From Guyanagaster necrorhizus (lineage: Eukaryota > Basidiomycota > Agaricomycetes > Agaricales > Physalacriaceae): 64,000 nucleotides of DNA. This document shows, in pieces, positions 36,998 through 49,102 of the stretch; positions within the stretch are counted from its first letter, which is position 1; each line of letters opens with the position of its first letter. The translations under genes were made by a program, and so were the position numbers. The DNA is taken from NCBI RefSeq assembly GCF_019112545.1, contig NW_025064895.1, positions 984,049-1,048,048 on the forward strand, read 5' to 3'. Below the pieces are notes generated by a model. It had not been told where the DNA came from, ran no database searches, and saw only the letters and a program-made list of their open reading frames with translations.

Positions 36998-37053
36998 GTA
37001 TGCCAGTGGCTGATGGATCTGGTCTTTCAGATGGTTCTTGTTGTATTGGATGG
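36998..37053 (-). pseudogene. Element G: gag fragment between insertions A and D
   Basis: A 56-base remnant of G gag, including the TSD copies gtatg and gatgg. It aligns with the region around 17240-17310 of element F (catctggtatttgataggcc...gttgtactgcattgc), which proves that A and D entered the same gag about 45 bases apart. Confidence 0.8.
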
Positions 37054-37551
37054 TGTTAAGAATGTGCCAATCGAGTGGGCTTGAGTGCACATGTGGAGTC
37101 CAGTGGAGTGTGTGAGCATTGACAAAGCTATTGGCAATGTCACCCTTGAGTTGGAGCCTAAGGATCTGGATGGGCAGAATGGAGTTCCATCAGGAAAGTG
37201 AATAGGAATATCCTTCAGAGCAGAATCCAACAGACAAGATAGAGAGTAGTTGAGGTGAGTGCAAAGTGCAGATAGCTTATCCAAGTTGATATTCGAACTG
37301 AGTAGTTATGATGATGTACATGGCTTTATATACTAATAGTAGCTAATTCTGAGTCGGGTTCTATTGGGTTCTGGTGTCAGTATTCACTACCAAGTTCAGG
37401 GTCTAGATATTACAATGAGAAATATGGATGTGAAATGATAATGGTGAAATGAAATTGGTAGGTAATAGGAAGCAGCTAGAGTCCAGTGGGTAGCATGATT
37501 GGATTCGTGGTTGGTTGAGATGACACAGAGGCTGGCAGCATATGCATAACA
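37054..37551 (-). repeat. Element D: 3' LTR
   Basis: 498 bases, tgttaagaatgtgcc to atatgcataaca on the plus strand (TGTTATGC...TTAACA in element sense). The 13-base length difference from the 5' LTR is one indel near 37417-37440. Other differences are transitions. Minus-strand bases 37564-37552 (AAGGGGAAGATAC) form the polypurine tract. Confidence 0.93.
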
Positions 37552-37612
37552 GTATCTTCCCCTTAGCATTCTTGCCCTCAAGAGTGCAGATTCCGATGGC
37601 CAGTGGGGCCAC

Positions 37613-38993
37613 ATGGAAAATTGTTGGTGGCCATGAGAGTTTTGCAGCTTGAACTGAAATCACCATCTTCACCTATGTCATCACTCATGCACTCCTGAGC
37701 CTCTGGTGAGGGGGTCCACCTCTGATGGCTCTGAAGAGACCAAGGAATTGTTTCATCTGGAGTGGTGAACTGTGAAGAAAGAATATGCAGAAGCCATAGA
37801 GAGCCATTTGGAATGGCAAGAGGAGTGGGAGCAGGAGGAGAGGGCTCAGGTGGACCATATGGCCTGGGAGTCACAGAAAAAGAAGCAGAGAGAGAAATTG
37901 GAGAGGAAGAGAGAGAAGGTTCGGCAGGCTGCAGAGAGGCAGGTGAAAGAGGCAGAGGAGGCATTGAGAGAGGTGGCTCAGAGGGAGGCTGAGGAGAGGG
38001 AGGCTGCAAAGGCAGTGGTGAGGGCTGAAACTGAGGGGGTAGAGCCAGGAGAGATGGTTATGGAGGATGGATTGCAAATGACCCCTGCAGAGGCCATTGA
38101 TTTCCAGCTGCATCAAGTGTTAGCAGAACAGTTTGGTCCTAGCTCTGGTCTTCACTTCAAGAAAGTGGCTTGCCCTGTGCCTCCAGGGTCCAATGATGAG
38201 CAGGACAAGGGGACTGAGAGGGACAATGAGTCTGAGGAATCCGAGAGGACTCTGGAGAGGAGAAAGAAGGTGTGGGAGGAGAAGAGAAGGGTAGTGGGTC
38301 CAGTGGAGAAGGGCTGTAAATGCAAGTTCAGATTGAGGAGTGTAGTGGATAGTAGTGGGACAGAGGTGGTTGTTAGCCCCAAAAAGTGGGTGAAGTTGGA
38401 AGTGGCGGGACTGGTGGAGGGTGAAGAATTGTTGGATGGTGAAAGTAAGTGTCTTGGTTTTCTTTTCTGGCTTAACTTAGCTTTTGTTTTCAGAGAGTTA
38501 TATGTGTTGTCGTCAAGATGGTGCATGGTGTTATGCATGACCAGTAACTGAAGGCACCAGTTGAGAGTGGACTTGCTCTTGCTGCAAGGTCAAGAGAACT
38601 ATCTGTTCATTCAACAAGGGCATCACCACGAGTGAGGTGATCAGCAGCATGGAGGTCTCCACTGGTCTCCACCAACTTTCAAAATTGATATGCAAGTTGA
38701 TGCATTGCATGGATGAGTTGGCAGATGAGATGGCAGATGTTTATAGTACTGTGGCAGATCTTCAAGATGACTATAGTTCCGATGATATGTCATCTCCTTT
38801 AGAGCTGTTTTCAGAGTCCAAGGTGGAGGCCTGGAAGAAGGTCTGACTGATTTTCAAGGATGAGAGAGATCAGGAGATGAAGGATCTTTAGGAGGTGATG
38901 TTGAAGAGGCTGGACGAGGATATAAAGGAGTTGAAGGAGCAGGGGGAGAGTTTGGGTTCTGGTGCAGGCCCGTCAGATTCCGCCTTTTTGTAA
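37613..38993 (+). pseudogene. Antisense spliced accessory gene of element D, Zn2Cys6-like
   Basis: Two exons, 37613-38444 and 38494-38993, joined in phase to give 444 codons; the total is an exact multiple of three. The ATG at 37613 is my choice (first in-frame Met downstream of the LTR). Exon 1 has a Glu- and Lys-rich coiled-coil region (EYAEAIESHLEWQEEWEQEE to about 38040) and a basic stretch near 38300. Exon 2 starts with a cysteine pattern: Y(38499)-x2-C(38508)-x6-C(38529)-x14-C(38574)-x2-C(38583)-x6-C(38604). The Tyr is one G-to-A step from Cys, so this is close to the fungal Zn2Cys6 layout. Two further helical charged segments follow (LSKLICKLMHCMDELADEM and LKRLDEDIKELKEQGE). Seven in-frame stops (six TGA, one TAG) are all explainable by transitions. 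The gene converges tail to tail on pol. Function unknown; a DNA-binding regulator is only an inference. Confidence 0.72.
38445..38493 (+). other. Predicted 49-base intron in the antisense gene of element D
   Basis: Donor GTAAGT at 38445-38450, branch-site candidate CTTAAC at 38471-38476, acceptor TTTTCAG at 38487-38493. Removing it joins phase 1 to the frame that carries the cysteine motif and stays readable to TAA at 38991. Size and signals are typical of filamentous fungi. Confidence 0.8.
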
Positions 38994-39179
38994 AATATTT
39001 GTACGAAGTATATAGAAAAGAGCATTGGATATTGGTAATGGAGAAAAAAAATGTAAATACAAAATTTTGATTTGAAAGTGTAAGAGTGATTGAAATGGTA
39101 GTAATTAGTGGTTAGAATTGAAATGGTAAAATAGGGTGCTGGTGGTGTTCAGAGTAGCATTGTATTAGGAATGGAATGT

Positions 39180-42100
39180 TTAAATGACTTTGGACAAGGG
39201 TCCTAGTTTGCCTGGGTATTGGTGGTGGAATTCTTCAATGAATTCATTGGCGGAGAACTCGGAGGCTGGTAACCATGCAAATTCTTCATTGGTACCTTCA
39301 TATCCTAGCCACTGGAGTTTGTACAACAGTGGGCAGCAAAACTGGCAGTCCAGTTTAGAGTCAAAGATTTGGGCTATTTTGAAATGTTCTTCTCCATTGA
39401 CTTTGACTGGAGGCAGTAGTAGTTGGATTTGGTTAGGAATGGTGTTTTCTTCTATGGGTTCCAATTGTGACATATAGAAGACAGGGTGAATAGACCAGAG
39501 ATCTGGCAGAAGCCTCAGAGTAAAGGAGTGGGTACCAGGTTGGACTATGATTTCAAAAGAACCAAGGTATTTTTTCAAAAATTTTCTGGTCAGGTGGATG
39601 GTTTTGATATGTTTAGAGCTGAGGTAGGCCTTGTCCCCCACTATGAATGGGGGTGCCGGAATCCGATGCTTATCTGCTTGGATCTTGTAGTGAGACTGAG
39701 CTTCAGAAATTTCATCCTTCAGTAATTGATGAAGTTCATCAAGGTTGACTGTGAAATCTTGGGCCTAGGCAGAGGCAATATCCCTTTCAGGGTGAACAGT
39801 GATGTTGGGGTGGTAACCCTTATTGGCAAAAAATGGGAAAATTCCAGTGGATGCATTAGGGACATTGTTGTAGGCGAATTCAGCAATGGGTAGGAGGATG
39901 TCCCAGTTGTTCTGTTGGTAGAAGCAGTAGATATGGATGTACTATTTCAGAGTTTGGTTTACCTGTTTGGTTTGTCCATCAGCCTCCAGATGGTAATCAG
40001 AGGTAAGATGGAGCTCCATGTCAAGAGTCATGACTAAGGCACAAGTAAATTGGGAGATGAATTTGGAGCCATGGTCAGATGTGATGTGACTGGGTACCCC
40101 ATGTTTGGAGAATACATGGATAAGGAAAAGTTGGGTGAGCTCCACAGAGTTAATGGTGTCATGAGTGGAAATGAAGATGGCTTACTTGCTAGTTTGGTCT
40201 ATGACTACTAAGATGGCAGTGAATCCATTAGAGTCCAGTAGTTGTTCAATGAAGTCCATGAAAATAGAATCCCATGGCCGTTTGGAAACTGGCAGAGGTT
40301 TGAGTAACCTATAGGGGTGGTGTCTAGATGCCTTATTGCATCCACAAACTGTGCAGGACTTAACATAGTGTCAGACATATTCATGCATCTTTAGCCAGGT
40401 ATAGTTCTGCTGGACTAGTTTCAATGTCTGGTTTTGACCAAAGTGGCCTGCCAAGATGTGGTCATGATTGTTCTGTAGTATATGGAGACAGAGATCTCTG
40501 GACTCTGGGACATAGATGTGGCCTTCAAAGCAGAGGATGTCTGATTTATCAATGGACCACTGAGAGGGAGAGGATTCTGAAGTGGCTTTAGCCTGGCAGA
40601 GACCATCAGAGGATGTAGGGTCAGAAGATTGTACTTGTTTGATATCAATGTGGAGCTTGTCAATGTCTATGATGGCACTGGCTCAGAGGGTAGGGCCTTC
40701 AAGATAGGTTGCATGGAGTGATGTGAAAAGTTGTTCTTGGGTGAACATAGGTCAGAAGTTGTGGGAGTTGACTTGGGCATATTGGCTATCTCCCTCTTTA
40801 GGGTAGATGTCCCATCATCTAGTGAGCACATCCAGTTTTCCACCAAGTTTTCCAGGGTGGAAACATATTACTAGATTGAACTGGGATAGGTATTCAGATC
40901 AGTGGACTTGTCTGCAGGTTAGAATCTTAGTGGTGGCAAAGTATTCAAGGTTCTTGTGGTCTGTTACAATATTGATGGAGTCCATGAAGCCTTCAAGATA
41001 GTGCTGCCAATGCTTAAAAGCTTCAAAAATGGCCAGGAGCTCCTTGTCATGGGTGTCATAGTTGAGCTCAGCATTGTGGAGGCTTTGGGAGCAGAATGCA
41101 ATTGGGTGAATTTCACCATCTTCAAGGCAGATGGAGAGGATAGCTGCAATGGCATAATCAGAGGCATTGGTCTCCATCACTATCTTTCAATCAGGGACCC
41201 AGTGAGTAAAAATGGGAGCATGTGTAAAGGCCTCTTTCAATTCATTGAAGGTGGCCAAGCATTTGTCATCAAATTTTCATGGAATTCCCTTGTGGGTGAG
41301 TCATGTAAGAGGAATGATGATGTCACTATATCCATGTATGAAGCGACAGTAGAAGTTGGCAAAGCCGAGGAAGGATTGGATGTCCTTGACTTTTTATAAC
41401 ACTGGCCAGTCAACAATGGCCTTGACTTTTTCTTCTGACATGCAAAGTCCTTCAGGTGATAGGATGTAGCCTAGGTACTCCATGGAGTCCTGGTTGAATT
41501 TGCATTTGGAGCTCTTGCAGTAGAGTCCATTAGCTCTAAGCCTGTGTAGGACCTCTTAAACATGTTTCTGATGATCTTCTGGGTTGTCAGAATATATGAG
41601 GATGTCATCGAGATAGACTACTACTGATATGTCAAGTATGTCAGAGAATATATCATTCACAAATCATTGGAATGCTGCTGGAGCATTTGTGAGGCCAAAA
41701 GACATGATATGCCATTTGAAGGAACTGTAATGGGTCTGGAAGGCTGTTTTCCATTCATCCCCCTTAGCTATGCAAATGAGATGGTAGGCATGCCTAAGGT
41801 CAAGTTTAGTGTAGATGCACATAGAGTGGGTGGAGTTGAGGAGATCAGAAATGAGAGAGAGGAGGTAGCAATCTTTCTTGGAGATTTTGTTTAGGCCATA
41901 GTAGTCAACACAAAGTCAGAGTTCACTAGTCTTTTTTTTGACAAATAGAACTGGAGCCCCATGTGAAGAGTGGGATGGAGTAATAAACCCATTATGCAGA
42001 TTATCATCAATAAACTCTCATAAGACCTTGAGTTCAGATTCTGAGAGAGAATAAATAGAGCCAAGTGGTGGAGATGTTTCTTTCTCAAGGTTGATTTTAA

Positions 42101-43031
42101 GGTCATATGGCCTGTGTTTGGGTAGCTTTTCAGAGAGGGTATCGCTGAAGACATCTGCAAAATCATGGTACTCTACTGGCACTGATGAAAGATCTGCTGG
42201 TTCTGCGGATATGGCTTTGGCTCTAATATTGGGCAAGGAAGGCTGCAGTGTGAACTGCTGAGCATCTTCTTCTGTACTGGCTCAGACAAATGCAGCAGTG
42301 GATATGATGGAGATCTTTGAGTGTGCTTTCATAGTAAAAGATTCTGAGGGAGGATAGGAGTAGATGGGTTTATACAGGAATAGAGTCTGCTGGTTACCTG
42401 GAGTTGATTTGGAATGAGGTGAAGCTCCGGAAGTTGGACTAATGGAGTCCGATGGGCACAAAAGTCCTGGATTTGAGCTGGAAGGCTTGGAGAGGGGTGG
42501 ACTATTGTCTTGTGAGCATAGAAGTCCCTGAGATGCAGTGGGAGCCATGAAATTGGTTGGAGTGAGGTCTTGGTAGCTTGAGCAGAAAATGATACTGTTC
42601 TCAGCCCAGTCAATCAGTGAATTGTAGCGAGAGAGCCAGTTGTATCCTAGGACAAGATTGCAAGATGAATCCAGAGGAGTGACATAGAAGTCAATGAAAA
42701 AGGTGTCTCCAGATGGAAAACAGATGGGGATGGTTGCAACTTGAGATATATGGCTCCTGATGAAACCATCAAATAATCGAAGTTGCACACTAGGAATGGT
42801 TTTAATGGAGATTTTATTGGCAGCTACATACTTAGTGTCAACAAAGCAGTGGCTAGAGCCAGAATCAATAAGAGCAAGAAAACATAGGATGATACAAGTT
42901 GGGGAACTATTGGGTTCCATAGTAGTCGGTAATTCTGCTGAGAGAGGAATGTGGAAGGAGTGGTTGGAAAGGGATGTTGCATTGAGAGTGATGACCTCCA
43001 GTGTGCAAATAGAGTCAATGCAACTCTGAAC
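39180..43031 (-). pseudogene. Element D: pol (protease, RT, RNase H, integrase, chromodomain-like end)
   Basis: One frame (-1 relative to gag) from about 43031 to TAA 39182-39180. Retropepsin: LALIDSGSSHCFVD near 42880-42840. RT: YHDFADVF and LPKHRPYDLKI near 42170-42110, with active site YLDD at 41615-41604. RNase H: TNASDYAIAAILS at 41175-41135 and DKELLAIFEAF near 41050. Integrase: HGVPSHITSDHGSKF near 40110-40065, then GQTKQVNQTLK where related integrases have Glu in QTLEQY, so the third catalytic residue appears to be Lys. C-terminal: WLGYEGTNEEFAWLPASEF near 39310-39250. Stops are fewer than in the other elements. Confidence 0.9.
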
Positions 43032-43057
43032 TCACATGAAGGGAACAGAGTTGCTTT

Positions 43058-44506
43058 CTAGTTTTCTGACTCTGTCAGGGCCAGTTCTACAGGAGCAGTG
43101 TTGACTTCTGCTACACAACCCTTAGCAGAGACTACTGCCTTCCGCTTATTGCAGTTCTCAGTCTTGTATTTGGCTCCACAGAACATGCAAAGGTTGTTCT
43201 GGCACCAGTGGTCTTTTTCTTCCTGAGTAAGATGGCCATCTTTGCCTAGCTTGTCAGCATAGAGCTTAGAGGTGGTAGATTTCGGTGTGGAGCTGGAGTC
43301 TGAGGAAGAAGTGTTAGACTCCTTGAATTTGGGATTGGGGGATTTATTGTCCCAGTTTTCATAGGCAATTTCAGTCTTCCAGGTCCAGTAGCAAGCATCA
43401 AGTTCTTGGGCAAGGAAGTGCATATCACAAAGGTTGTTTGGCTTCCTATGGTATGCTATGTCATTCTTGATATGGATGCAAAGGCCACAGTAAAAGGCAT
43501 GGTGGAGGGAGTTGTCTCTGTACTCAATTTGTGAAGCATACTGGTTGAATTGGACTATGTACTTTATGATCCAATCTCTATCACACATCTGAAGGTGTTC
43601 TAATGCATCTTCAGCATCCCTGATAGCATCAAAGGGGCTGAAGTTGCCATGAAGCTCATCTAGGAAAGCTGTGTAGGAGAATTGCCAGGCTGATGGATTC
43701 CACAGATTGGGATTAAAAATGTCTGATTCGAACCAGTTAAGTGTGGTGCCAGCCAGGAATGAAATAGCATAGTTAACCTTGTTAGCATCTGTTGCAAATG
43801 TGGTAGGTCTGTTATTGAAGTTCAACTGAAGGGAGACGATGAAAGCCTTCAGTTTGTGAGGGTCAGAGCCATCAAATAGTTCTGGTTTCTTGATCTTGGT
43901 GCAGATAGTGGCTGGTTTAGGGTTGTTAAGGGAAGCAGAGACTCCTTGTAGCAGGTTCATGAATTCTAGGAACATGTCCTGCTAGTTTGGATTGTTACTT
44001 CCTGCAGGGCCATCAGAGCTGCCTGAGCTATTGGGACCACCTGGTCCTTCTGGTCCTTCTGGTCCTCCTAGTCCATCTGGAAAAGGGTTTGGTGGATTGT
44101 CACCTGGTTCCTGTCAGATGGGAGTATAAGTAGGGGTGTCTTCATCTCTGCCCTCTGAGTCTGGGCTGTCTGGATCCCTGTGCATGTTGCCCAAGAATAA
44201 GGGGTTTATTGGAGGGTCAGTTCAGGCACCATACATCAGGCTGGTCTGTTGGGCCCCATTAGTTGGAATGCTGGTGGCATCAAAAGGGTTAGGGGAGTCG
44301 TCGTAATTAGATTGGTGGGCTGTGAAGCTAGAGTGATTGTAGGTTTCCCTATGGGAAGGTTGTCCTCCACTGGAGGCCGATCCAAAAAGGCCTGGTTGTT
44401 CCTTTGAGGTAGAGGCCAGAATGTCTTCCATGAAAAACATGTTTGAATGAGTGGGCTGGGTTTATTCAGGATCAGTTTCTGTGAGTTTGGTAAATGTGGT
44501 GGACAT
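43058..44506 (-). pseudogene. Element D: gag
   Basis: ATG 44506 (MSTTFTKLTETDPE) or 44440 (MFFMEDILAST); both are in the same frame, with a TAA between them that reads as a decayed CAA. A Gly-Pro-rich collagen-like spacer (GPEGPEGPGGP near 44060) precedes the capsid domain IKKPELFDGSDPHKLKAF at 43895-43840, which runs to NWFESDIFNP. The zinc-knuckle-like CMFCGAKYKTENC is near 43188-43150, with Tyr in place of His. It ends at TAG 43058. The 305-codon stretch 43058-43975 is free of stops, the longest intact gag in the window. Confidence 0.88.
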
Positions 44507-44532
44507 GATAAAATTTTCGACTCAAGAGTTTG

Positions 44533-44543
44533 AGTTCAAATAT
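44533..44543 (-). promoter_or_regulatory. Element D: candidate self-priming site
   Basis: Minus-strand ATATTTGAACT starts 2 bases after the 5' LTR. It can pair with AGTTCGAATAT in the LTR (44791-44781) at 10 of 11 positions, the other being a G-U wobble. The LTR segment begins 33 bases after the TATA box TATATAAAG (44824-44816), near the expected mRNA start. GTTCGAAT also resembles a tRNA T-arm, so a tRNA-derived primer cannot be excluded. Confidence 0.4.
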
Positions 44544-44545
44544 AC

Positions 44546-45030
44546 TGTTAAGAATATGCCAATCGAGTGGGCTTGAATGCATGCACAGAGTCCAGCAGAG
44601 TGCATGGGCATTGACAAAGCTATTGGCAATGTCACCCTTGAGTTGGAGCCTAAGGATCTGAATGAGCAGAACAGAGTTCCATCAGGAAAGTGAACAGGAA
44701 TATCCTTTGGAGCAGAATCCGACAGATGAGATAGGGAGTAGTTGAGATGAGTGCAAAGTGCAGATGGCTTATCCAAGTTGATATTCGAACTGAGTAGTTA
44801 CGATGATGTACATGGCTTTATATACTAATAGTAGCTAATTCTGAGTCAGATTCCATTGGGTTCCAGTGTCAGTATTCACTACTGAGTTTGGGGTCTAGAT
44901 ATTACAATGTGAAATGATAATAGTGAAATAAAATTGGTAGGTAATAGGAAGTGGCCAGAGTCTGGTGGATAGCATGATTGGATTCATGGTTAGTTGAGGT
45001 GACACAGAGGCTGGCGGCATGTGCATAACA
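44546..45030 (-). repeat. Element D: 5' LTR
   Basis: 485 bases, tgttaagaatatgcc to atgtgcataaca on the plus strand; partner of 37054-37551. TATA box on the minus strand at 44824-44816. Followed on the right by the TSD gatgg and the remainder of G gag. Confidence 0.93.
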
Positions 45031-45035
45031 GATGG

Positions 45036-45483: not shown

Positions 45484-46755
45484 ATTGGTTCTCTCCCATT
45501 GCTCTCACTGCCTCCACTCACTCACAATAGAGCTGGACATTTCACCAGTATCCATCATCAAGTAGCTGCCCAACCACTTGGCTCCTGAGAAATCCTTGGA
45601 GTGCATGAGCAGGAATGTGAGCAGTCTCAGGGACTCATAGCCTATAGTGTCTGAGGACAGACTCATCATCTCTGAACATAGTATCAATACTGGAGGTTCA
45701 TCAGAGAGAGGGATACTGGAGGGTTGGAGGGTGTAGGGGAGACTCAAAGGCTCTGTCTTCTGCTGTGAGAGTCTCATTTCACCAGCAGTTCTCACTCCAG
45801 CAGCTGGACTTGGTACTTGGCTTCCTGAAGACTGGGGTGGAGAGGGATGGGTCAGCTCATACTGAGGCAAGGACAGTGGTGCCTTCAGGCCAGAGTCCAT
45901 ACTAATTTGAGACATTGGCTCTTTTCAGCTGGACCCTCTTGACTTCTTGCTGCTTATTGCGATGCTGCTCATCATACCTGGTGGCTTCTCATCTCCATCT
46001 CCCTTTCTCAATGAGACACTCCTCAAGCTTGCTGCAAATTGGCTGTAGTGCAGTTTGTTGCCTCTGCTCTTCCTGTCTGAGGGTCTCATTGTAGTTGAAG
46101 AGGATGTCGGTGTTCCAAGTGGGAAAGTATCAGTGTATAACCTCATCCTATACTTCTCTTCCTCAGTGCTCATCATGGAGCCAGTCTGAGAATATCCTCT
46201 CTATCCCATCACTTGTCCTGACTGAGCATAGGGAGGTAGAGGTGAGGCTATAAGACTGGCCTCAAGGTGATGTTTGGCAGGATCTTGTAGCCAACTGAGC
46301 AGCATTGAGAGAATCTCTAGCATAGTTAGCAATCCCTCTGGTTCTAGAGATGGTGGTAGGGTCAGATGAGAGAGACTGCTGAAAAAAGTCTCCTGAAATG
46401 TCCTTGTCTTCATAGTTAGACAGGGGTCCTGGGATCCATGGGTTTCTGAATCCTGAGATGCGAGGGTCAAGGTCTTGGCTAGATTGTCTGGGAGGGTATC
46501 AGTGTCTCTCTTCTTCCTGAATGTCTCCTTGATGCAGGCTGCTAGATCTAACTTCTGATAAGGGGCTCATTGGGGGCTGGTGAGATGTTCATTGGGATTC
46601 GGGGATGTCATGTAAAGAGAGATCAGGAGTTACATTTCATATGATGTGTCAGATATGCTGAAACTTATTATAATATCTAATAGTCCAAGCAGTAATTGAA
46701 TAGTGTCTCTGGCACAGCTGGATGATTATTAATAATCCCAACAATGTTCTGATGA
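45359..46755 (-). pseudogene. Element G: ORF1 main part
   Basis: Continues the hydrophobic N-terminal segment (RTLLGLLIIIQLC near 46750-46710) after insertion J, in one frame down to TGA 45361-45359. Sequence shared with I and F: EDKDISGDFFQQSLSSDPTT, then ADPSLSTPVFRKPSTKS near 45850, then GQLLDDGYW near 45560. It overlaps gag from 45483 to 45359. Unknown function. Confidence 0.65.
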
Positions 46756-48130
46756 TGTGCTTGATAACAGCTAAGTGACTAAGAGAAGTGAATGAGGAAT
46801 GAACTCTCAAACACCAACATCTAACCACTCAATACACAATCACCAAATACAGTTGAGATCAGTTGTTTCAAGTACAATAGAAGCACTCTTGCAGTCTTAA
46901 GTAAAATCAAAGAAACAGTCAATAAAGACAGTTATTTAACTCTATCTTGCTTTCAAAGATGCAATACTCATGAGAGTAGTTTATAGCAATGTTTAAGTAT
47001 AATTAGGACTTAGAATCAACACCAAATTGNNNNNNNNNNNNNNNNNNNNNNNNNNNNNNNNNNNNNNNNNNNNNNNNNNNNNNNNNNNNNNNNNNNNNNN
47101 NNNNNNNNNNNNNNNNNNNNNNNNNNNNNNNNNNNNNNNNNNNNNNNNNNNNNNNNNNNNNNNNNNNNNNNNNNNNNNNNNNNNNNNNNNNNNNNNNNNN
47201 NNNNNNNNNNNNNNNNNNNNNNNNNNNNNNNNNNNNNNNNNNNNNNNNNNNNNNNNNNNNNNNNNNNNNNNNNNNNNNNNNNNNNNNNNNNNNNNNNNNN
47301 NNNNNNNNNNNNNNNNNNNNNNNNNNNNNNNNNNNNNNNNNNNNNNNNNNNNNNNNNNNNNNNNNNNNNNNNNNNNNNNNNNNNNNNNNNNNNNNNNNNN
47401 NNNNNNNNNNNNNNNNNNNNNNNNNNNNNNNNNNNNNNNNNNNNNNNNNNNNNNNNNNNNNNNNNNNNNNNNNNNNNNNNNNNNNNNNNNNNNNNNNNNN
47501 NNNNNNNNNNNNNNNNNNNNNNNNNNNNNNNNNNNNNNNNNNNNNNNNNNNNNNNNNNNNNNNNNNNNNNNNNNNNNNNNNNNNNNNNNNNNNNNNNNNN
47601 NNNNNNNNNNNNNNNNNNNNNNNNNNNNNNNNNNNNNNNNNNNNNNNNNNNNNNNNNNNNNNNNNNNNNNNNNNNNNNNNNNNNNNNNNNNNNNNNNNNN
47701 NNNNNNNNNNNNNNNNNNNNNNNNNNNNNNNNNNNNNNNNNNNNNNNNNNNNNNNNNNNNNNNNNNNNNNNNNNNNNNNNNNNNNNNNNNNNNNNNNNNN
47801 NNNNNNNNNNNNNNNNNNNNNNNNNNNNNNNNNNNNNNNNNNNNNNNNNNNNNNNNNNNNNNNNNNNNNNNNNNNNNNNNNNNNNNNNNNNNNNNNNNNN
47901 NNNNNNNNNNNNNNNNNNNNNNNNNNNNNCTGACTTAGGATTTTTATCCTTAGGCCATGTTATTTTACAAAGTCCCTTTTGGACTTAGTATTGGTGACTA
48001 GCATGACTATCAGCTCAGAGCCTCAGCCATAGTCCTTTACTGGCTAATGATTCTCAGTTACTAGTATATTCTAGTGTGTTATGCAGAATTTGCAAATTAT
48101 AGAGCTGGACATGTAGCCTGCATATCACCA
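46756..48130. mobile_element. Insert J in ORF1 of element G, containing the assembly gap
   Basis: Sequence unrelated to the neighbours, from tgtgcttgataacag to gcatatcacca, with TG...CA ends. The flanks are atga (46752-46755) and acaa (48131-48134), which correspond to one ancestral acga decayed in the two possible ways, so a 4-5 bp TSD is likely. About 475 bases are readable. It could be a solo LTR or a larger element collapsed in the gap. No coding capacity visible. Confidence 0.55.
47030..47929. other. Assembly gap (900 N)
   Basis: Exactly 900 undetermined bases. The true length is unknown; it sits inside insert J, so it was probably left by a repeat that did not assemble. Confidence 1.
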
Positions 48131-48198
48131 ACAATAGAAGTGAGGAGTTCAAAAAACTCATGATCAAAGTTTGGGTCTGAAGAGTTGATAGAGAGCAT
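48131..48198 (-). pseudogene. Element G: start of ORF1
   Basis: ATG 48198 gives MLSINSSDPNFDHEFFELLTSIV, cut by insert J in the hydrophobic segment. It aligns with the ORF1 starts of E2, F, A, C2 and I. Confidence 0.75.
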
Positions 48199-48241
48199 TC
48201 AGTTTCCTTCACACTAATAGGCATGAAGAAAGGGAAAGAAC

Positions 48242-48254
48242 AGCTTCAAGCTAA
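48242..48254 (-). promoter_or_regulatory. Element G: self-priming primer-binding site
   Basis: Minus-strand TTAGCTTGAAGCT beside the 5' LTR. The LTR counterpart at 48410-48422 reads AGCTTTGAGCTAA in element sense. As in F, the only mismatch is the decayed CG (CA against TG). Confidence 0.65.
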
Positions 48255-48255
48255 T

Positions 48256-48716
48256 TATTAGACTCAAGCATCATATGAGCAGAAACACATGATAAACAGA
48301 AGCTACTTCACACTTCAGGTAGTCATCTGAGTTCACTGATGTGCTTCTGGATTGGTGTGTCATAAGGCTGAAGAGGTTTGGCTTGAGAGTAGAATGGTGT
48401 GAATAAACTTTAGCTCAAAGCTGGGTGTTTTCCAGCAAGAGCTAGCCTCTTAAATACTGTACAAGTTCTGTGCTAAATATACTGTTATTAATTGTGCATT
48501 GTCGAGTCCTTTGTGCTCATTGTCCTTGAGCATTGTTACTGTACATAAAAGGATGATTGTGTATCATCAGGCAATGCTATTGTGTCAAGAGACAATGACT
48601 GACTCAGCTGTTTGTGATGACTAAGCCTCATCTCATAGTCTCAAGCATCTGTGTTTAGTGCCCTGACTAAGCACAAATAGGGGTTAATCAAGAAAGAAAA
48701 TAGAAAAATCATAACA
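48256..48716 (-). repeat. Element G: 5' LTR
   Basis: 461 bases from tattagactc (TG to TA at the end) to aaatcataaca on the plus strand. Partner of 22694-23153. Followed by the TSD agcac and the rest of the C2 3' LTR. Confidence 0.9.
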
Positions 48717-48967
48717 AGCACAAATGCTCACAATTAGTAACACTATATTTATCTAGGAGATGAACAGTATATAAGCAGCATAGTTAGCAACATATATTCC
48801 TAGTCTCAAACTATTCTTTATTCTACTATTTCTACTCAAGTCAACTAAGCATTGACCTTGGGATATAATACTATCAAACACAAAAGTGAATTCAGATGTG
48901 ATTGTATAAATGTGATATAGCATCTGTCTATCATGTGTATATAGTCACATATCACTTGAGTCTAACA
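48717..48967 (+). repeat. Element C2: 3' LTR, right segment
   Basis: Continues the LTR begun at 22489 (aaatgctcacaattag...), including TATA tatataag near 48769 and agtctcaaactat near 48803-48815, and ends at gagtctaaca 48967. Followed by the TSD tgcag at 48968-48972. The first 5 bases are the agcac duplicate made by G. Confidence 0.88.
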
Positions 48968-48972
48968 TGCAG

Positions 48973-49102
48973 CTATTATATTATCATAGTGCTATCATCT
49001 ATAGTTCTATGTGGTTTCTGCAAGATTTCTTCATGGCTGGAGCTGAGCTGTAAGGATTTATAAGTATTGGCAAGTTACAATTTAAAGATGAAAATTGTGA
49101 CA
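48973..49102 (-). repeat. Solo LTR E, right segment
   Basis: 130 bases from the C2 TSD to ...attgtgaca, which completes the 622-base LTR started at 6249. Followed by gaatc, the TSD partner of gagtc at 6244-6248. C1 pol resumes directly after it. Confidence 0.55.

Follow-up and report, generated by a model that had tools for sequence, protein, structure and literature searches.

We show that a decayed Ty3/Gypsy retrotransposon of the fungus Guyanagaster necrorhizus, here called element D, holds between the end of pol and its 3' LTR a degraded copy of an accessory gene that is genuinely protein-coding, has one intron and is antisense to gag and pol. Related copies keep the intron, the cysteine cluster and, in some cases, an open spliced frame, and substitutions among them bear the mark of coding constraint on this strand; the element thus carries an antisense, spliced gene. 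As to its role, we favour with moderate confidence a reading in which the intact protein would be a nuclear regulator that binds CGG-type motifs in the LTRs of its own element.

The window, i.e. the whole stretch of DNA analysed, consists of 64,000 nt of contig NW_025064895.1 (assembly GCF_019112545.1, positions 984,049-1,048,048 of the forward strand). Element D occupies positions 37054-45030 of the window, on the minus strand. It is a decayed Ty3/Gypsy element, with an LTR pair of 87.6% identity, a target-site duplication, a Ty3-type gag, a protease, a reverse transcriptase, an RNase H and integrase parts (Table 1). The rve core gave no match in the pol pieces tested, and Rfam no match. The outcome of a scan for bacterial promoters in the LTR was discarded as uninformative for a fungus. 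Next to element D, the GC content of the 46001-49000 region is 20-23%, compared with mostly 31-47% in the other profile windows.

Table 1. Features of element D and of its antisense gene (positions in the window).
Feature	Position	Strand	Remarks
Target-site duplication GATGG	37049..37053	.	second copy 45031-45035
3' LTR	37054..37551	-	edges TGTTA...TAACA
LTR motif copy 1	37094..37103	+	decayed CGGAGTCCGG type
LTR motif copy 2	37477..37486	+	decayed
LTR motif copy 3	37526..37535	+	decayed CGGAGGCCGG type
ATG matching the start codons of the other copies	37675..37677	+	out of frame: 17-nt loss just 3'
Exon 1	37675..38444	+	charged region and basic, NLS-like patch; in-frame stop 37766
Basic, NLS-like patch in exon 1	about 38303-38401	+	judged by eye
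Intron, 49 nt	38445..38493	+	GTAAGT...TTTTCAG, phase 1
Exon 2	38494..38993	+	in-frame stops 38538, 38562, 38844, 38889; natural stop 38991-38993
Six-Cys cluster	38499..38606	+	Y-x2-C-x6-C-x14-C-x2-C-x6-C; first Cys is Tyr in this copy
Helix after cluster	38655..38773	+	approximate; from alignment with the predicted helix of Armillaria P0016 (homologue only)
pol remnants: RVT_1, RT_RNaseH, Integrase_H2C2, SH3_Tf2-1	39180..42281	-	fragmented by stops
Protease (RVP_2) and gag (Ty3_capsid)	42285..43981	-	
5' LTR	44546..45030	-	
LTR motif copies in 5' LTR	44586, 44956, 45005		

The original prediction had placed a two-exon gene opposite to gag and pol, between the 3' LTR and the end of pol. This location was borne out, pol ending at about 39180. 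The same is true of the intron, whose two borders are where they were predicted and whose phase is exact (the splice-junction codon of the window copy is AAG), and of the spacing of the cysteines in exon 2. The predicted start at 37613 was wrong: the frame there meets stops at 37634 and 37655, and it is the ATG at 37675 that matches the other copies. The first 62 bases are therefore outside the gene. From this ATG on, five in-frame stops interrupt the window copy. Four of them are in exon 2, for which the prediction had named stops, and one is in exon 1, which is broken as well. The stops had also been described as being of the transition type. Checked at the level of the family, 75 of the 122 stops found in 48 aligned rows are one transition away from the commonest codon.

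Exon 1 had at least 151 matches in the 53.3-Mb genome, window copy included (best 150 of 308 candidates scored), and exon 2, searched with a distant homologue, at least 150 (of 260 candidates). The 30 best-scoring copies were fetched, and an alignment of 48 rows was made, representing 47 distinct loci, since L043b and L018 are one and the same locus; L052, which duplicates the locus of L028, was omitted. All 30 fetched copies have the intron, with a length of 49 nt (17 copies), 51 nt (10), 52 nt (2) or 56 nt (1), and in all of them exon 2 is in register across it. The GTAAGT donor is found in 47 of the 48 aligned rows and an AG acceptor in 46. The first cysteine, lost in the window copy, is intact in 28/30 fetched copies and 46/48 rows, each cysteine of the cluster being retained in 43 to 47 rows. 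Six of the 30 copies are open over the spliced frame up to the final stop, three of these having lost 17 nt near the start and one having ATA in place of ATG. On the retention of the intron, of the first cysteine and of an open frame by related copies, the prediction thus stands. The less decayed copies encode about 428 residues, with a charged region, a basic patch, a six-Cys zinc-cluster-like module and a helix.

Relative to L024, all 9 indels in exon 2 are multiples of three, as against 2 of 39 in the intron; in exon 1, 42 indels divide into 16 multiples of three, 16 occurrences of the 17-nt loss and 10 others (in all three counts, shared, inherited indels are counted repeatedly). With gapped codons uncounted, the gene frame has a mean of 2.54 stops per row, compared with 8.1-25.5 in the other five frames, and 12 of the 48 rows are free of stops in the gene frame compared with none in each other frame. 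The start codon is ATG in 34/48 rows. The loss next to it removes exactly 17 nt immediately 3' of this codon, where two short direct repeats flank the missing stretch, in the window copy (37675-37692) and in 16 of the 48 rows, which have lost the start frame. We rejected the idea that it marks a single subfamily: it is scattered on the tree, with 14 changes against 13.6 in shuffles (on a rapidly built tree in which many forks are weak and three branches are long). It thus seems that, in these sequences, the loss recurs, each time shifting the start out of frame.

Transitions dominate the differences among copies. At the pairwise level, 44% of them are at CpG-type sites (81681/186512, 30 copies), and 468 of 1810 variable transition columns are of the CpG type when decayed pairs are counted, or 106/1810 in a simple count. 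CpG decay is large, yet it makes up less than half of the transitions. The window copy has an observed/expected CpG ratio of 0.144; in the three other copies examined, the values are 0.67, 0.71 and 0.08. Such strong decay, seen over the whole family, suggests DNA methylation of the element. Because transitions dominate, much of them at decayed CpG pairs, Ka/Ks was estimated from transversions only and with CpG masked, either between five diverged rows and the 43 remaining ones or within the 43 rows; intervals are bootstraps over codons of pairs that are not independent, and one row, L059, is long and misaligned in part.

By transversions, Ka/Ks between groups was 0.25 (interval 0.15-0.42) in the gene frame and 0.87-1.85 in the other five frames; within the 43 rows, it was 0.36 (0.18-0.79) and 0.67-11.2, respectively. 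By non-CpG substitutions, the gene frame gave 0.48 (0.39-0.59) between groups and 0.72 (0.58-0.91) within. Here one frame of the opposite strand overlaps with it (0.59 between groups and 0.75 within), and is distinguished from it by transversions and stops only. Both tests give the lowest value to the gene frame, in support of the predicted coding constraint on the antisense strand. With transitions left unmasked, the gene frame does not stand out: between groups, 0.59 is to be compared with 0.60, and within the 43 rows, 0.79 with 0.72 for one frame of the opposite strand. As a control, pol from the same 30 loci gave a non-CpG Ka/Ks of 0.39 (0.29-0.54), its transversion value of 0.88 (0.41-2.92) being uninformative. 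Identity between groups is highest at second codon positions (0.765), then at first (0.704) and third ones (0.624), the order expected for codons. Divergence of the intron brings no clear support: between groups, identity over its core is lower than over the exons (0.601 vs 0.671 and 0.739), but within the 43 rows it is higher (0.942 vs 0.856 and 0.867).

At all 30 loci, the gene is accompanied by an LTR match and, on the other strand, by the C-terminus of pol; at the six loci with LTR positions given, the LTR is upstream of it. Six gene copies are contained in five longer stretches (four being extensions of loci among the 30), each adjoining pol in antisense orientation; three of the stretches have an LTR pair (92.2% identity in L040, 87.7% in L041, and 96.0% over 249 nt in L042). 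Starting from pol, we compared by eye the 30 best matches of its C-terminus (150 scored of 1888 candidates) with the list of gene copies: 26 have the gene alongside, on the opposite strand. Among the remaining four, exon 1 is partly preserved in one, a second has just a fragment of exon 2, and two, L060 and L063, are geneless. Given that the gene is absent or partial next to some pol copies and that a third of the aligned rows lack the start frame, it is not required in cis in every copy. These two geneless elements belong to the same family, the distance from pol to LTR being about 100-200 nt. L043 has two LTR-gene-pol ends of like orientation at a distance of about 4.6 kb, an arrangement that looks nested or tandem.

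Homologues are found in another genus. The spliced protein of one natural copy had a single match, in Armillaria solidipes, at 29% identity (7995 candidates scored). The cluster region of that protein in turn retrieved 24 proteins, itself included, of which 22 are from A. solidipes, A. ostoyae and A. borealis, and a profile search added 53. These Armillaria homologues are multi-copy, 29-33% identical to the Guyanagaster protein, and have a similar start, cluster and order of parts; P0001 has a similar start (MS...YR.S.TPEP) and can be aligned with it over the basic patch, the cluster, the FNK motif and the helix. Among the 53 proteins added by the profile, P0063, P0068 and P0069 are closer to L024 (40-42%), P0063 being 33-45% identical to the Guyanagaster copies. 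Many of the Armillaria proteins are named 'Zn(2)-C6 fungal-type domain-containing'; they differ from those described here by a middle linker of 8 residues rather than 14 (C-x2-C-x6-C-x8-C-x2-C-x6-C in 21/24) and by a longer C-terminus. The gene models of P0006, P0017 and P0018 have 16-18 extra residues just before the first cysteine, at the site of the intron here, which suggests the same intron as in the element D family. The multi-copy Armillaria proteins (P0001-P0024) may belong to mobile elements and not be regulators of the host.

We then come to the nature of the six-Cys module. With its C-x2-C-x6-C-xn-C-x2-C-x6-C spacing, its basic residues and the helix that follows, it is like fungal Zn2Cys6 domains of the Gal4/Leu3 type. 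It differs from them in missing the PF00172 (Zn_clus) cut-off, in the absence of a Fungal_trans match, and in the order of its halves; its linker of 14 is also beyond the 5-12 that the original prediction gives for fungal zinc clusters. No Pfam family reached the cut-off in a search with the gene product; among 28 homologues, PF00172 was matched by 6 at E up to 10, the best E being 1.3. In the genome, 39 matches to PF00172 were obtained at E up to 0.001, and none was at a listed gene copy (compared by eye). A profile of cluster and helix searched against PDB sequences matched the DNA-binding domain of LEU3 at E 0.0066, a designed coiled coil scoring similarly (0.0054). With another alignment, the LEU3 match weakened to E 0.14, below many coiled-coil matches, and with one sequence to E 7.9. 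In the AlphaFold model of P0016, pLDDT is weak over the cluster (43-59) and above 90 in the core of the following helix. Foldseek gave no match at E up to 0.001, so that the structure search yielded nothing usable.

In Gal4-type clusters, the basic CxxC[RK]xKK half comes first. This is the position of the CxxC[RK]xKKxxC half in 12 host Zn2Cys6 domains, whereas it is second in the cluster of the antisense gene. Scored against a profile made of these 12 domains, the native order obtained 26.9, within the range of sequences with shuffled non-Cys columns (mean 19.7, maximum 30.5 of 60), and the swapped order 35.2, above every shuffle (mean 18.4, maximum 32.1 of up to 60), so that the half that is first in host domains comes second here. 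At the sequence level, the module therefore resembles Zn2Cys6, short of the Pfam cut-off, and a half-swapped order fits it better. The original prediction spoke of a cellular-type regulator carried by the element, which is supported in part: an antisense spliced gene is indeed carried, and its product does not reach the cut-off of Zn_clus, the cellular Zn2Cys6 family.

Candidate targets for such a protein are found in the LTRs. A decamer, CGGAG(T/G)CCGG, is repeated near LTR positions 40, 417 and 466, and both LTRs of the window hold three copies of it, all CpG-decayed. In nine less decayed copies, the LTRs contain 12-23 CGG/CCG, compared with 7.9-17.4 in dinucleotide shuffles, an excess of about 1.6 to 3.2 s.d. 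per copy (the nine not being independent) for much of which the decamer accounts. The gene region of the same nine copies is at about -1.0 to 2.3 s.d.; some of these regions being above shuffles, the excess extends beyond the LTR. When CpG-decayed forms are included, the nine copies have 3-4 motifs per LTR, against 0-2 in the following 2.4-2.9 kb, and 30 LTRs have three motifs in 14 cases, four in 4, two in 9 and one in 3. The exact motif, picked after looking, occurs 2-3 times in three LTRs, where 0.001-0.004 is found in shuffles; in an unbiased count of repeats (13 nt, 2 mismatches), 0, 2 and 0 of 150 shuffles attained the observed number, while less strict settings gave 1-21 of 150. At six further loci, the 392-506 nt upstream of the gene contain at least one motif in four cases, three of them among the five diverged rows.

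Put together, these observations lead us to the reading given at the outset, that of a decayed, real antisense gene whose protein would act on the LTRs. An antisense transcript would start in or next to U3 of the 3' LTR, run away from it and be spliced. Its product, for which zinc and DNA binding are predicted, would enter the nucleus, bind the CGG-type motifs repeated in each LTR and regulate the transcription of the element, by analogy with the antisense regulators of complex retroviruses. The genomic RNA would carry the intron as its unspliceable reverse complement, which reverse transcription would copy. The intron would survive because the gene is antisense; a sense intron would be lost upon reverse transcription of a spliced RNA. 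A more elaborate version, which we put forward tentatively and consider rather unlikely in all its parts, is that of a fungal Ty3/Gypsy counterpart of the retroviral HBZ system: the half-swapped zinc-cluster product would bind CGGAG(T/G)CCGG-type operators and tune both promoters, the intron would have been long kept only through its antisense orientation, and the recurrent 17-nt loss between direct repeats would be an off-switch of the start.

Other readings were weighed. The best of them, though we rate it as fairly improbable, is that the protein is real and serves in the choice of integration sites, chromatin targeting or nuclear entry instead of LTR transcription. A basic patch, a six-Cys module and a helix would suit an adaptor of chromatin or of the pre-integration complex, and such roles have been suggested for plant antisense ORFs (PMC7264820); the repeated CGG-type motif of the LTRs would be left unexplained. 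Less probable still, the module might be another zinc fold, for instance ribbon-like, that binds RNA or protein, its likeness to Zn2Cys6 being a convergence of spacing. The missed PF00172 cut-off and the lack of listed gene copies among the PF00172 matches of the genome speak for this fold, as do weak Zn_ribbon_IS1595 matches (4/28 homologues, best E 0.32) and strands in the low-confidence cluster model of P0016. It is countered by six cysteines invariant in the seven sequences chosen for one alignment and nearly so in the 48 rows, by the LEU3 match at its best E, and by the half-swapped host profile scoring above every shuffle.

That the gene is a captured host gene riding along without function for the element, as its fungal-type domain and small intron might suggest, is very unlikely given the constraint between subfamilies (Ka/Ks below 1), its presence alongside 26/30 best pol matches and its conservation across genera. 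We give hardly any credit to the view that the antisense RNA alone matters, through dsRNA or silencing, the frame being incidental: LTR elements do have antisense transcripts that can work at the RNA level (PMC7264820), but the codon-level constraint, the in-frame indels of exon 2 and the retained splice sites contradict it. Chance, in whose favour we found nothing, is rejected as practically impossible by the intron kept in register in 30/30 copies, the Armillaria homologues, the splice sites, Ka/Ks and the stop counts.

The HBZ gene of HTLV-1 is spliced, and encodes a dimerising helix and a basic leucine zipper. It belongs to an animal retrovirus, and its likeness to the gene of element D is one of working, with no homology. 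HBZ is an antisense retroelement gene with a nuclear product that matters for the life cycle (PMC11963269). Closer in location are the antisense additional ORFs described between pol and the 3' LTR of plant elements (aORF-3R), namely gene23 of maize Grande, rice RIRE2, ORF4/TRP28 of Silene Retand and bean PvRetro13 (PMC7264820 and PMC11963269). They share with our gene location, orientation and retention in most copies of a family, and some of their products are nuclear or predicted to bind DNA; they differ in that the gene of element D is found in a fungal host, is zinc-cluster-like and has a conserved intron. The portions of text on aORF-3R that we consulted do not name a zinc cluster, and a term search of PMC11963269 gave no 'zinc' and no 'intron'. 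In fungi, brtn of the Boty-like elements of Botrytis cinerea is an antisense gene in an LTR element (PMC8365987 and PMC7264820); it differs in having an Ascomycete host. Among the papers surveyed by title or start of abstract, we found no antisense zinc-cluster gene in an LTR element. Antisense accessory ORFs are thus already known, and the zinc-cluster form appears to be new.

Antisense genes of LTR elements had been described in plants and Botrytis. Since the product of the present one resembles a DNA-binding module widespread in fungi and candidate sites are found in its own LTRs, its function is directly testable, in yeast or in vitro. If true, our reading would show how a retrotransposon can retain an intron over the long term, and would point to the multi-copy 'Zn(2)-C6' models of Armillaria as being genes of mobile elements and not host regulators.
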